In this document: in pieces, positions 1,028 to 5,321 of the stretch
Layout: the number at the start of each line of letters is the position of its first letter
Numbering within the stretch: position 1 is the first letter of the stretch
Assembly: GCF_005670685.2 (NCBI RefSeq)
Contig: NZ_CP062008.1
Coordinates: 2,542,001-2,606,000, forward strand
Reading direction: 5' to 3'
Source: Mycolicibacterium mucogenicum DSM 44124
Lineage (GTDB): Bacteria; Actinomycetota; Actinomycetes; Mycobacteriales; Mycobacteriaceae
Length of the DNA stretch: 64,000 nt
The notes under the pieces: generated by a model
Seen by the model: the letters and a program-made list of their open reading frames with translations, nothing else
The model's database searches: none
Told to the model about the DNA's origin: nothing
Translations under genes and position numbers: made by a program

Positions 1028-1765
1028 TCACGCGTCGTCGGGCATGACGGTTTCCCACTGCACGAACGGTTCCAGATTCACGCTGGCGGCCAGCTTGATC
1101 GAGGCGGCATTGTCCAGCTGGCAGCGGTATTGCGGCTCGAATCCTTGCGTGAGCGCGTAGCGAAACATCTCACGCACCAATGACTTTGCGTGTCCTCGGC
1201 CTCGTACGGAGCCTAGGGTCAGCACTCCGATGTCGGCCAACGGAAACACGTCGTCCCACGGATACACGCTGCCGATACTCACAAGACGTCCGCGCTCGTC
1301 GAACGCGCCGAACACCGCCCAGTGGTCGAGTTCGACGTACGCGCCGTCCCAGTCCTCTTCGGGGACAGCCGCTTTGAACGACGCAAAGATGTCGGCGTCG
1401 CGATCGGTCAGCGGCCGGACGTTGATTGCTCCGGTGTCGCCGAGAATGTCGGCGGCCGCCGATTCTGAGAGATAAAACACATTGTCGGCGCCGTTCAGTA
1501 CGACGCCCTGGGTGGCCAGTGCGGCTCTGATGTCGGCCTCGGTCGGATTGTCGAGTGCGGCAATGTCATTGGTCAGCACATCGGCGACGGCGGAGCTCAC
1601 GGCGATCGACACGCGGTCGTCGTCGGCGGTCCGCAGGATGGCGGCGCGTTCGTCGTGCTGCAGGTCCGGGTTGACGTTGATCGTCAGGTTTTTGTTGCGG
1701 TGCAACGTTTTTCCGCTGAACGCGGCGGTCCAGTAGTCGGTGATGACCGGCGAGAAGTCGGGCAC
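1028..1765 (-). CDS. GNAT-family N-acetyltransferase
   Basis: A 245-residue protein. The C-terminal half has the GNAT fold signature: I-G-V-L-T-L followed by the acetyl-CoA pyrophosphate loop R-G-R-G-H-A-K, then an M-F-R-Y-A-L helix. The N-terminal half resembles the extra domain of two-domain GNAT proteins. The start is the GTG at 1763-1765, preceded by AGGAG six bases upstream; the open frame continues far upstream only as a shadow of the PPE gene. It is transcribed divergently from the PPE gene, and the 150-base gap contains the Zur-like palindrome. The acceptor substrate cannot be told from sequence. Confidence 0.85.
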   Translation of the reverse strand: MPDFSPVITDYWTAAFSGKTLHRNKNLTINVNPDLQHDERAAILRTADDDRVSIAVSSAVADVLTNDIAALDNPTEADIRAALATQGVVLNGADNVFYLSESAAADILGDTGAINVRPLTDRDADIFASFKAAVPEEDWDGAYVELDHWAVFGAFDERGRLVSIGSVYPWDDVFPLADIGVLTLGSVRGRGHAKSLVREMFRYALTQGFEPQYRCQLDNAASIKLAASVNLEPFVQWETVMPDDA

Positions 1766-1875
1766 GGATGAACTCCTGGGGACGCTGGCGGGTTGACCTA
1801 GGTAGGTCGCATCCTTCAGAGCCCTCGTCCGTTCGGCAACGCATTTTCTTGCGCCACGCAACCGGGCTGCTACCT

Positions 1876-1896
1876 TAATGAACATAGTTTTCATTA
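1876..1896. promoter_or_regulatory. Zur (FurB)-like operator
   Basis: A 21-bp AT-rich palindrome in GC-rich surroundings. The 7-bp arms TAATGAA (1876-1882) and TTCATTA (1890-1896) are perfectly complementary, separated by CATAGTT. The right half reads TTTTCATTA. Mycobacterial zinc uptake repressors bind AT-rich palindromes of this TGAAA...TTTCA form. It ends 22 bases before the PPE start, where a repressor would block transcription. Assignment to Zur rather than another Fur-family protein is inference, helped by the His-rich product of the gene it precedes. Confidence 0.65.
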
Positions 1897-1918
1897 CCGT
1901 TAACGGAGCGGGGGATGC

Positions 1919-3391
1919 GTGATGGCAATGCCGGTGTGGATGGCGTCGCCGCCAGAGGTGCATTCGGCATTGCTCGGCAGCGGTCCGGGTCCGGGCCCAC
2001 TGCTCGCGGCCGCGGCCCAATGGTCTTCGCTCGCCGCGACCTACACAGCGGTCGCCGAGGAGCTTCGGGCCGTTCTCGCGGCAGCGCATGCGGGAGCATG
2101 GCAGGGACCGACGGCAGAGCGATATGTGGCCGCACACGTTCCGTATCTGGAGTGGCTGACCCAGAGTGGCCTGGAAAGCCATGCCCGCGCGGCCCGGCAT
2201 GAGGCCGTCGCCGGCGCATACAGCGCTGCGTTGGCCACGATGCCCACACTCGCCGAATTGGCCGCCAACCACGCCACGCAGGCCGCGCTGGTGGCCACAA
2301 ACTTCTTCGGTATCAACACGATTCCCATCGCGGTCACCGAGGCCGACTACGTCCGCATGTGGGTACAGGCCGCCACCTCGATGGCGACGTACGAAGCCGT
2401 TTCCGACGTGGCGACGACGTCCGCTCCGCAGTCCACGCCCGCGCCCTCGATCGTCGGGCACGACGACCACGACCACGATCACGACCATGATCACGATCAC
2501 GATCACGGCCATGATCACGATCACGATCACGGCCACGGCGATCTGGACCCGACCGATCTGGAATGGTGGTTCGAGGTCGGCGCCGAGATGGGCGAGCACC
2601 TCGAACTGCTGTGGAACAACCTGCTTTACGATCCGGCCGCGCTGCTGACCAATCTGCCGATGGTGTTGGCGGACGTGACTTTCCATGCGTCGCAGCTGGC
2701 TTCGGTGCTGGGTCAGTTCGCCCCGGCACTGATCCAGCCGGCACTCGGCCTGGCGATCGCCAACCTCGGTTGGGTGGCCGGGTTCGCGGGACTGGCCGGT
2801 ATCCAGGTTCCCCCGGCGGCGATCGGTGCAGAGCCGCTGCCGGCGCCGCAGGAAACGCCCACGCCTGCCGTCGCGACGGCCCCTGCGCCCAGCCCGGCGT
2901 CAACGGCGACCTCTGCGTCGGCCCCGGTGAGTGCCTCCGCGTCGGCACCGACCGGCACGGTGTCGTCGCCCGCTGCTCCGGCACCGACCTCGCCGCCGCC
3001 CGTGGGAGACCCCGGGTTCCCATATGCGGTCGGTGACGGTTCGGGTATCGGCGCGAGCGCGTGGCTCCAGCGTCAGACGCGCGTCGATGCCGCCGCGTCG
3101 GCACGGGCATCCAGGACAGCCCAAGAAGCCTCGGCTGCTGCGGCGTCGGCCCGGCAGGCGCGCCGGCGTCGCGGTCGGCGCAAACAAGAAGGTGACGCTG
3201 TCGAATACATGGACCTCGATGTCGCGCCGGAATGGGAATCCGGCGCCTCGGACAGCGGCGCCGGCCCCATGGGGTTCACCGGAGCCGTATCGCGCGCGGG
3301 CGGTACGCCAGCGGGATTGACGGCGGTGTCCGGCGACGAGGTGCGCGCGCCGATGCTGCCGAGTACCTGGAGCCCTGACGAGAACGGCTAG
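1919..3391 (+). CDS. PPE protein (PPW-type C-terminus) with His/Asp-rich insert
   Basis: A 490-residue PPE-family protein. The PPE domain (about residues 1-170) has the P-P-E-V-H-S motif near residue 12 and the W-Q-G-P turn typical of helical PE/PPE partners. Residues 181-206 are an insert with 13 His and 11 Asp. A helical middle part, a Pro/Ala-rich linker and a C-terminal region with G-F-T-G and M-L-P-x-x-W (PPW subfamily) follow. PPE proteins are usually exported by ESX systems. No PE partner gene is adjacent. GTG 1919 and ATG 1922 are both possible starts, with GGAG upstream. The Zur-like box and the His tract suggest a role in zinc acquisition; that is inference. The stop overlaps the ndh stop by 4 bases. 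Confidence 0.88.
2459..2536 (+). repeat. Low-complexity GATCAC repeat encoding the His/Asp tract
   Basis: A degenerate hexamer array (variants of GAYCAY) inside the PPE gene encodes alternating His and Asp, residues 181-206. Such arrays can change length by slippage in steps of two codons without breaking the frame. It is an internal coding repeat, not a CRISPR array. Confidence 0.8.
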
Positions 3392-4785
3392 GCGGACTCG
3401 TTCTTCTCGACCTTGTCGGCCGCGGCCAAAGCGTTCAGCTGGTTCTGCAGCAGCTGCATCGAGGTGCGTGCGTAGATCATCTGGCTGGTGATCGCCATCT
3501 GCGCGCGGCCGCGGCCCAGGAAGGTGACGAACCAGGTGAACAGTGTCGTCACCCGGTTCTTGTAGCCGACCAGATAGACCAGGTGCAGCACCAGCCACGA
3601 CAGCCACGCGAACGGTCCGGCGAATTCCAGCTTCTTCTTGGTCAGCGGCACCGGCACCTGGGCGACCGCGTCGAACCGCGACACGGTCGCCATGCTGCCC
3701 TTGTCCCAGTACTTGAAGGGCTCGCGGTTGGCGGGGTCGTCATGGCCGGCCAGGGACCGCTTGATGATGTCGGCGGCGTAGGTGGCGCCCTGGATCGCAC
3801 CCTGCGCCATGCCCGGCACGCCTGGGACGGCCATGAGATCACCGATGACGAAGACGTTCGGGTGCCCCTTGACCGTGAGGTCGGGCTCGACCACGACGCG
3901 GCCGGCCCGGTCGGTCTCGGTGCCGTCGGACTGCTCGGCGATGAGCTTGCCCAGCGGGCTCGCCTGCACACCGGCCGACCACACCTTGCAGGCGCAGTCG
4001 ATGCGGCGCTCGGTGCCGTCCTTGTCCTTGACGGTGATGCCCTTGTAGTCGACGTCGCTGACCATCGCGTTGAGCTGGATCTCGACGCCGAGTTTCTCCA
4101 GGCGCTTCTGCGCCTTGGCGCCGAGCTTGGGACCCATCGGGGGCAGCACCGCAGGCGCGGCGTCCAGCAGGATCACGCGGCAGTCCTGCGGCTTGATGCT
4201 GCGGAACGCGCCGGCCAGGGTGCGTTCGGCAAGCTCGGCGATCTGTCCGGCCAGTTCGACACCGGTGGGCCCGGCGCCGACCACGACGAACGTCAGCCGG
4301 CGGTCGCGTTCTGCCGGGTCGGTGACCACCTCGGCGGCCTCGAATGCGCCCAGGATGCGGCCGCGCAGTTCGAGGGCGTCGTCGATGGTCTTCATGCCTG
4401 GCGCGAACGTCGCGAAGTGGTCGTTGCCGAAGTAGGACTGCTGGGCGCCGGCCGCGACGATCAGGCTGTCGTACGGCGTGACCGTCTCCTGCGACATGAG
4501 CTTGGAGGTGACGGTCTGCGCCTTCAGGTCGATGTGCTCGACCTCGCCGAGGCGGACGGTGACGTTCTTCTGCTTACGCAGGACCAGCCGCGTCGTCGGC
4601 GCGATCTCGCCTTCGGACAAGATGCCCGTGGCGACCTGGTAGAGCAATGGCTGGAAGAGATGGGTCGTCGTGCGCGAGATCAAGGTGATGTCGACGTCGG
4701 CGCGTTTGAGGGCCTTGGCGGCCTGCAGGCCACCGAATCCCGATCCGATGACGACGACGCGATGACGCTGGGACGCGATGGTCAT
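3388..4785 (-). CDS. ndh: Type II NADH:menaquinone dehydrogenase
   Basis: A 465-residue single-subunit, non-proton-pumping NADH dehydrogenase that oxidises NADH at the inner face of the membrane and passes electrons to menaquinone. The first FAD dinucleotide fold is [10 protein letters not shown] near residues 10-20; the second, NADH-binding fold is [17 protein letters not shown] lies near the FAD site. A C-terminal hydrophobic segment ([11 protein letters not shown]) fits membrane attachment. Start ATG at 4783-4785 has GAAGGAG upstream; the longer open frame is an artefact. Convergent with the PPE gene: the two stop codons share CTAG (3388-3391). Confidence 0.95.
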
Positions 4786-4874: not shown

Positions 4875-5321
4875 TCAGCGCCCGGCTGCCGGCAACTCGA
4901 TCCCCATCTGCTGCAAGGCTTTTCGCATGGAGCTGTCGCCGCGGTCCAGATAGCCGCTCAGCTGGTCGAGCGACGCGTCCGCGGTGCCCGGCGTCATCAT
5001 CGTGCAGACGCGGGCGAACGACCGGAAGTTGTCGATGCTGTCCTGCAACGACGAGTTGACGTCCGCGTTGGGCGTCGGCAGGTTCTTGCCGAGATCGTCC
5101 AGAGTGCCTTGCAGTTTTGTGCAATCCCGCGACATGGCGACGAAGTCGTGCGCGGTCATTGCTTCCCCGACCGTGCCGAGCGTGCCGCCCAGGCTGGACA
5201 CCGAATCGGTGATGGGACGTTGCCACGTGAGGTCGCCCGGCGCGCCGGCCTGGCCCGGCACGGTCTGTGTGCAGGCGCTGAGCAGTGCACCTGCCACTGC
5301 CAGTACCGCAACTCGACGCAT
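4875..5321 (-). CDS. Putative lipoprotein of unknown function
   Basis: A 148-residue protein with a lipoprotein signal ending L-S-A-C (lipidated Cys17), so it is probably anchored on the outer face of the plasma membrane. The mature part is helical, with two further Cys residues (in R-D-C-T-K and A-R-V-C-T) that could form a disulfide. I do not recognise a named family. It is divergent from the PheC-like lipoprotein gene with 45 bases between the starts, so the two probably share a promoter region. Confidence 0.8.
   Translation of the reverse strand: MRRVAVLAVAGALLSACTQTVPGQAGAPGDLTWQRPITDSVSSLGGTLGTVGEAMTAHDFVAMSRDCTKLQGTLDDLGKNLPTPNADVNSSLQDSIDNFRSFARVCTMMTPGTADASLDQLSGYLDRGDSSMRKALQQMGIELPAAGR

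Follow-up and report, generated by a model that had tools for sequence, protein, structure and literature searches.

A PPE gene in the genome studied here stands directly behind a predicted operator for the zinc regulator Zur, and its product carries an arm made almost entirely of histidine and aspartate. The best explanation, to which we give a probability of roughly 0.6, is that the gene encodes a zinc-starvation-induced cargo of ESX-3, of the PPE4 type, whose arm captures zinc at the envelope. Zur-controlled PPE genes are already known; we rate the His/Asp arm and its link to the Zur box as the new part, and searches of open-licence PubMed Central papers turned up neither a His-rich PPE protein nor such a link. 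The window, by which we mean the whole stretch of DNA analysed, comprises 64,000 bases (2,542,001–2,606,000) of a 6.1-Mb single-contig genome that its relatives show to be mycobacterial.

The predicted Zur box and its company in the genome

The predicted operator is the sequence TAATGAACATAGTTTTCATTA at positions 1876–1896, an exact palindrome just as the first-pass annotation had described it, and its end lies 22 bases from an in-frame GTG at 1919, the spacing given there, and 25 bases from an ATG at 1922. It is the sole match at up to three mismatches in the window, with 0.10 expected from 100 shuffles. On a Zur matrix the box scores 30.4 bits, within the range of the training boxes (23.0–40.5), and the runner-up site in the window reaches 6.2; the published Zur consensus differs from it at one position on the plus strand and at two on the minus strand. 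The matrix was derived from 27 published mycobacterial boxes of non-PPE genes, most of them predictions themselves: 15 of the 19 boxes in Table 2 of PMC4298942, leaving out four that belong to two PPE genes, and 12 of the 23 boxes in Table 6 of PMC7174638, namely those of genes named as Zur-regulated in the text of that paper, plus smtB.

The box is not isolated in this genome. A whole-genome scan with the consensus from the methods of PMC7174638, its first three positions dropped, gave 34 and 45 matches; with a control pattern the numbers were 8 and 5. Further sites that stay within two mismatches on both strands are found at a ZigA-like CobW gene (which scores below the cut-off of the ZigA model), between an MRF-type CobW gene and the L28…S18 genes, at the gene for type-B L31 (two boxes), at an operon with a ZnuA-type binding protein of a zinc ABC transporter, and at smtB–zur, a FUR-family gene adjoining an ArsR/SmtB gene. 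L28 is preceded by another box, with two mismatches on one strand and three on the opposite one. The genes at these loci were assigned by eye and their families by profile match. Four further two-mismatch sites match on a single strand only. With the smtB–zur locus and other classical Zur targets present in the same genome, and with its matrix score, the earlier reading of the palindrome as a Zur-like operator holds. Zur control of the PPE gene from this predicted operator is strongly supported, because the matrix score, the genome-wide company, the presence of a box at all 14 relatives with a His tract and the published zinc repression of MAB_0809c, the tentatively matched M. abscessus gene (the last two described below), all point to it.

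The two Zur boxes at the type-B L31 gene lie between it and a divergent acetyltransferase gene, Pat (L126, G000:C1:937768-937843), whose expression could be affected by zinc. The PPE gene in the window also has a divergent acetyltransferase as neighbour (positions 1028–1765, minus strand; GNAT family, Pfam PF00583, 25.8 bits), and the two had been suggested to share the switch. The comparison of loci lends this no support: such a gene was seen next to the PPE gene at two of 15 loci, the window and L001, which share one gene neighbourhood, and it is probably outside the unit. A pattern search for a sigma-70-type promoter gave no match in positions 1700–3600, and neither a promoter nor a terminator pattern turned up at the PPE gene.

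The PPE protein and its His/Asp arm

The gene itself (positions 1922–3391, plus strand) encodes 489 amino acids plus stop, or 490 from the alternative GTG start at 1919. The ATG at 1922 is the likelier start, because relatives among the matches listed begin MAMPVWM; a purine-rich stretch resembling a ribosome-binding site, read by eye, occupies 1905–1914 on the plus strand. The product belongs to the PPE family and to its PPW subgroup, scoring 200.1 bits on PF00823 (cut-off 26) and 46.8 on PF18878 (cut-off 27). The PPE domain spans residues 6–168 in Pfam (1937–2425, plus strand) and has as its closest solved relative the PPE4 of the PE5–PPE4–EspG3 complex; the PPE-PPW C-terminal region spans residues 442–483 (3245–3370, plus strand).

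The tract lies at residues 181–206 in GTG numbering (2459–2536, plus strand), where 13 His and 11 Asp in 26 residues were counted, confirming the earlier count. The best 26-residue sum of His and Asp is accordingly 24, compared with a maximum of 11 in 2000 shuffles of the protein. In an AlphaFold2 model the tract has no regular structure and links the PPE helices, which run to residue 166, with a second helical region at residues 213–291 (2558–2794, plus strand). This model is of modest confidence (mean pLDDT 63.4, pTM 0.37), and therefore only its helix boundaries and the match of the PPE domain were used; in the second helical region pLDDT is 62–94, taken in ten-residue blocks, until about residue 280 and below 50 beyond. 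Two residues of this region, Glu222 and His255 in window-protein numbering, are invariant across 62 aligned proteins, tract-bearing and tract-less alike, and a second metal site in these C-terminal helices is conceivable.

How the tract varies was followed in the best 120 of 4131 homologues (E <= 1e-5, among 7997 scored). Within these 120, at least five His per 30 residues were found in 96 proteins, and 95 of the 96 tracts are distinct. Successive His residues most often lie two positions apart, separated in most cases by Asp (359), Gly (86) or Glu (50). Judged from these proteins, the tract is kept by its ligand composition, with free length, and not by its sequence. DNA encoding HDHDHDH, at most one base off, is found at three loci in the genome, namely the PPE gene, a cation-efflux transporter and a nitrile hydratase alpha chain, and its occurrence at the latter two fits metal binding. 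The nitrile hydratase alpha chain (L176, 2189–2938) has its His/Asp tract, HHHDHDHDH, at the N-terminus.

Profile comparisons of the arm gave resemblances below threshold. The ZrgA zinc uptake family (PF10986) reaches 19.4 bits with a cut-off of 27.4, its match covering the tract alone, and the tract alone likewise resembles tracts in nickel/cobalt efflux and UreE models, with scores far below their cut-offs. His/Asp runs bind nickel, cobalt and copper as well as zinc. Among zinc-starvation-induced exported proteins, His-rich stretches are present in ZrgA, in ZnuD, in the His loop of ZnuA and in the streptococcal Pht proteins.

Box and tract among relatives

Relatives were taken as the best 80 of at least 155 loci from a search of a genome collection, and the distribution figures given here refer to these 80. 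A His tract, defined as at least six His per 30 residues, is present in 14 of them, and the other 66 have at most four; this latter group includes two short reading frames (L038 and L039), the first with only 65 bases before its match. Scoring by exact pattern, over 55 of these 80, overlooked the box of L003 and rated those of Mycolicibacter too low, and the matrix was therefore applied to all 80. The first-pass annotation had proposed looking for the His insert in orthologs; it is found in these 14, and all 14 are boxed, with 23–32 bits at 38–124 bases before the start of the match. Among the tract-less relatives a box of at least 14 bits occurs within 400 bases in 13 of 66. A plain Fisher test over 82 rows gives 9e-9 (14/0 versus 13/55) with kinship ignored, and the count of 14 out of 14 is inflated by relatedness because five Mycolicibacter loci have one common box sequence; a tree-aware association test finds just one supported independent pair and has no power.

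The 15 loci with box and tract, the window included, fall into six gene neighbourhoods: the window with L001, L002 with L022, L007 with L008 and L013, six Mycolicibacter loci, and L003 and L012 each on its own. Box and tract thus travel with the gene and not with its flanks. These neighbour counts were made by eye and are approximate, and in the window, L002 and L022 antisense frames overlay the PPE gene.

A tree of the PPE domain (82 rows, without L001 for a motif mismatch and without L038 and L039, which are too short) is poorly resolved. A tree built without the insert (64 rows) is better resolved and places 13 of its 14 His rows in one branch with an SH-aLRT of 99; its length filter excluded one locus of the His type (L059) and seven of the 13 boxed tract-less rows. 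The remaining His row, L012, sits in a neighbouring branch whose other five members are boxed and tract-less. A single clade for all 14 His rows is not rejected (p-AU 0.077), and the His set requires two changes on this tree, so that the tract may have been gained or lost within a group under Zur control. Since 13 of the 66 tract-less relatives are boxed, a PPE gene can be under Zur control without encoding the tract, and the target of this control may be an older function of the PPE protein.

A different arrangement is seen at two tract-less loci, L018 and L015, where the PPE gene has no box close to it and is flanked by zinc-transporter genes on one side and an eccA3-like gene on the other. 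This island also has L28, L31 and cobW-family genes, and a Zur box precedes the eccA3-like gene (read by eye); the Zur boxes of L018 are at 4906 and 7491.

Published expression data exist for a likely counterpart in M. abscessus. MAB_0809c, a 'conserved hypothetical PPE family protein' with a Zur box, showed log2 changes of -5.77 and -4.66 with a zinc-carrying compound, a 25- to 55-fold decrease in mRNA (PMC8951752), and was inferred as a Zur target in PMC6734328. It is like the window gene in being a PPE gene with a Zur box, with strong zinc repression already published; it is unlike it in that the accounts of the gene in those two papers do not mention a His tract, and its function is listed as unknown. 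A homologue named M. abscessus (P0072, among the best 120 of 4131) does have one. In two Mycobacteroides-type genomes (those of L002 and L022), ten sites match the Zur consensus at up to one mismatch, at cobW, znuA, MRF/L28/L31 genes and a DUF1490 gene and inside a long frame, and because none of the ten involves a PPE gene we tentatively identify MAB_0809c with the His-tract gene of M. abscessus, a match by elimination and not by its sequence. The boxes of the His-tract genes themselves in these two genomes exceed one mismatch, so a second, weakly boxed PPE gene is possible. In a Mycobacteroides-type genome, a Zur box of 30.9 bits stands before a DUF1490 gene and the long frame after it (L173, about position 2359).

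Kinship with PPE4 and a proposed role in zinc capture

Compared with solved PPE proteins, the PPE domain matches PPE4 at E 1.4e-62, PPE15 at 9.5e-25 and PPE41 at 6.2e-19, and a fold search agrees, giving PPE4 of PE5–PPE4–EspG3 at 60–61% identity. Five PPE genes in this genome score above the cut-off, and the nearest PPE domain among them is the unpaired L131 (67% identity) and not PPE4 (63%); L130 (58%) and PPE68 (43%) follow. The genome has three EccB genes and two PE genes above the cut-off, one adjoining PPE4 in ESX-3 and one adjoining the PPE68-like gene of an ESX-1-like locus, both loci read by eye. Neither PE match lies in the window, and no PE gene adjoins the window PPE gene, which is solitary as had been noted. 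PPE4, by contrast, stands next to a PE gene in the ESX-3 locus, and the PPE4 of this genome lacks a His tract, alike as the two PPE domains are. Because no PE gene stands beside the window gene, the simplest inference is that its product probably pairs with PE5 and leaves via ESX-3. In M. abscessus, EccC3 is required for secretion of PE5/PPE4 and of MAB_0047 (PMC11791044); the string 'MAB_08' is absent from the main text of that paper.

Metal control of an ESX system had been hinted at in the annotation, and it does not apply directly here, as the ESX-3 locus of this genome has no Zur site by consensus scan or matrix. An iron-box-like site with three mismatches lies about 200 bases before eccA3, and another, with four, 25–30 bases before the PPE gene L130 (G000:C1:353389-353412); at up to four mismatches there is no iron box in the window. 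L130 and L131 (4864191) are two further PPE4-like genes without a PE partner, the second adjoining AMP-ligase-like and carrier-protein-like genes (by eye), and the two may be to iron what the window gene would be to zinc.

How might such a protein work? With zinc present, Zur would occupy the box just before the PPE gene and repress it; with zinc absent, the promoter would be freed and a PPE4-like protein with a metal-ligand arm would be made. This protein would pair with PE5 and pass through ESX-3, and its His/Asp arm, between the PPE domain and the second helical region, would bind zinc on or within the outer envelope, to be handed on towards the zinc ABC transporter. The regulatory signals, the conservation and the kinship are the observed part of this scheme, and all steps after transcription we infer. 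An exported zinc-binding role, one of the two proposed by the annotation, fits these observations. More speculatively, and with considerable doubt on our part, ESX-3 might be a shared export line for metal uptake, with one PE5 and interchangeable PPE4-type partners each under its own metal regulator; the Zur partner with its exposed His/Asp arm would then be the counterpart of an outer-membrane zinc receptor, and where Zur spares the ESX-3 machine it would control the dedicated zinc cargo instead.

Is the arm the point of the protein at all? The window gene may be a Zur-controlled PPE gene of the PPE3 sort, its function residing in the PPE body, for example as a nutrient channel, and its arm minor or later, for example a flexible acidic linker. 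Boxes before tract-less relatives favour this, as do the boxed, tract-less L046, which adjoins zinc-response ribosomal-protein and cobW-family genes, the two changes on the insert-free tree, and PPE3 of M. tuberculosis, reported as Zur-regulated and as a requirement for growth on several carbon sources, lactate among them (PMC13102306). The 13 His rows of the well-supported branch, however, keep the tract while its length varies and Glu or Gly replaces Asp, which points to selection for metal-ligand composition, and we regard a function in the PPE body as the chief alternative, possible but not favoured. The storage role that was the annotation's other proposal fits less well, because Zur targets switch on in zinc starvation. 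An arm with some 13 His could bind several zinc ions, as an envelope buffer or store would need, but such a store is expected in times of plenty whereas Zur genes are made in scarcity, and we think it fairly unlikely.

Two further readings concern the metal and the box. That the protein serves nickel, cobalt, copper or iron, its zinc link being secondary, would agree with the resemblance of the tract to those of nickel/cobalt efflux and UreE models; the operator is nevertheless of the Zur type, and the 400 bases upstream of each of the 14 His-type genes contain no iron box even when five mismatches are allowed, which makes this quite improbable. In G+C-rich genomes the promoter regions are rich in A+T, dyads occur often, and 10 of the 100 window shuffles contained a match to the palindrome at up to three mismatches. 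That the box is a chance or unrelated A+T-rich dyad is, however, already very unlikely, to the point of being negligible, given its matrix score, its genome-wide company and its conservation.

The preferred reading, a zinc-capturing PPE4-type cargo, has partial parallels. Like the window gene, PPE3 (Rv0280) of M. tuberculosis is a PPE gene reported as Zur-regulated (PMC13102306), and MAP3737 and MAP3765 of M. avium paratuberculosis are zinc-responsive PPE genes with Zur boxes (PMC4298942). In contrast to these, the window gene is solitary and encodes a tract. To our knowledge, PPE3 has no His tract. The likeness to ZrgA is confined to the tract and stays below the cut-off noted above. MspD of M. 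smegmatis is a zinc-starvation-induced outer-membrane route for zinc (PMC13098993), and it is a porin, whereas the window protein is a PPE protein.

Zinc transport across the mycobacterial outer membrane was described in a 2026 paper as unexplored so far, with the MspD porin offered as part of the answer (PMC13098993). ESX-3 of M. smegmatis was dispensable in low zinc (PMC3796483), which counts against the proposed route, and what makes ESX-3 important for zinc in certain species is not settled (PMC3796483). Both questions gain one testable gene in this PPE4-like protein, which is switched by Zur and whose metal-ligand arm is conserved; the arm may help the cell to catch zinc at its outer surface. 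If this is true, the PPE family, whose functions are mostly unclear, would gain a member whose sequence already tells its likely ligand.
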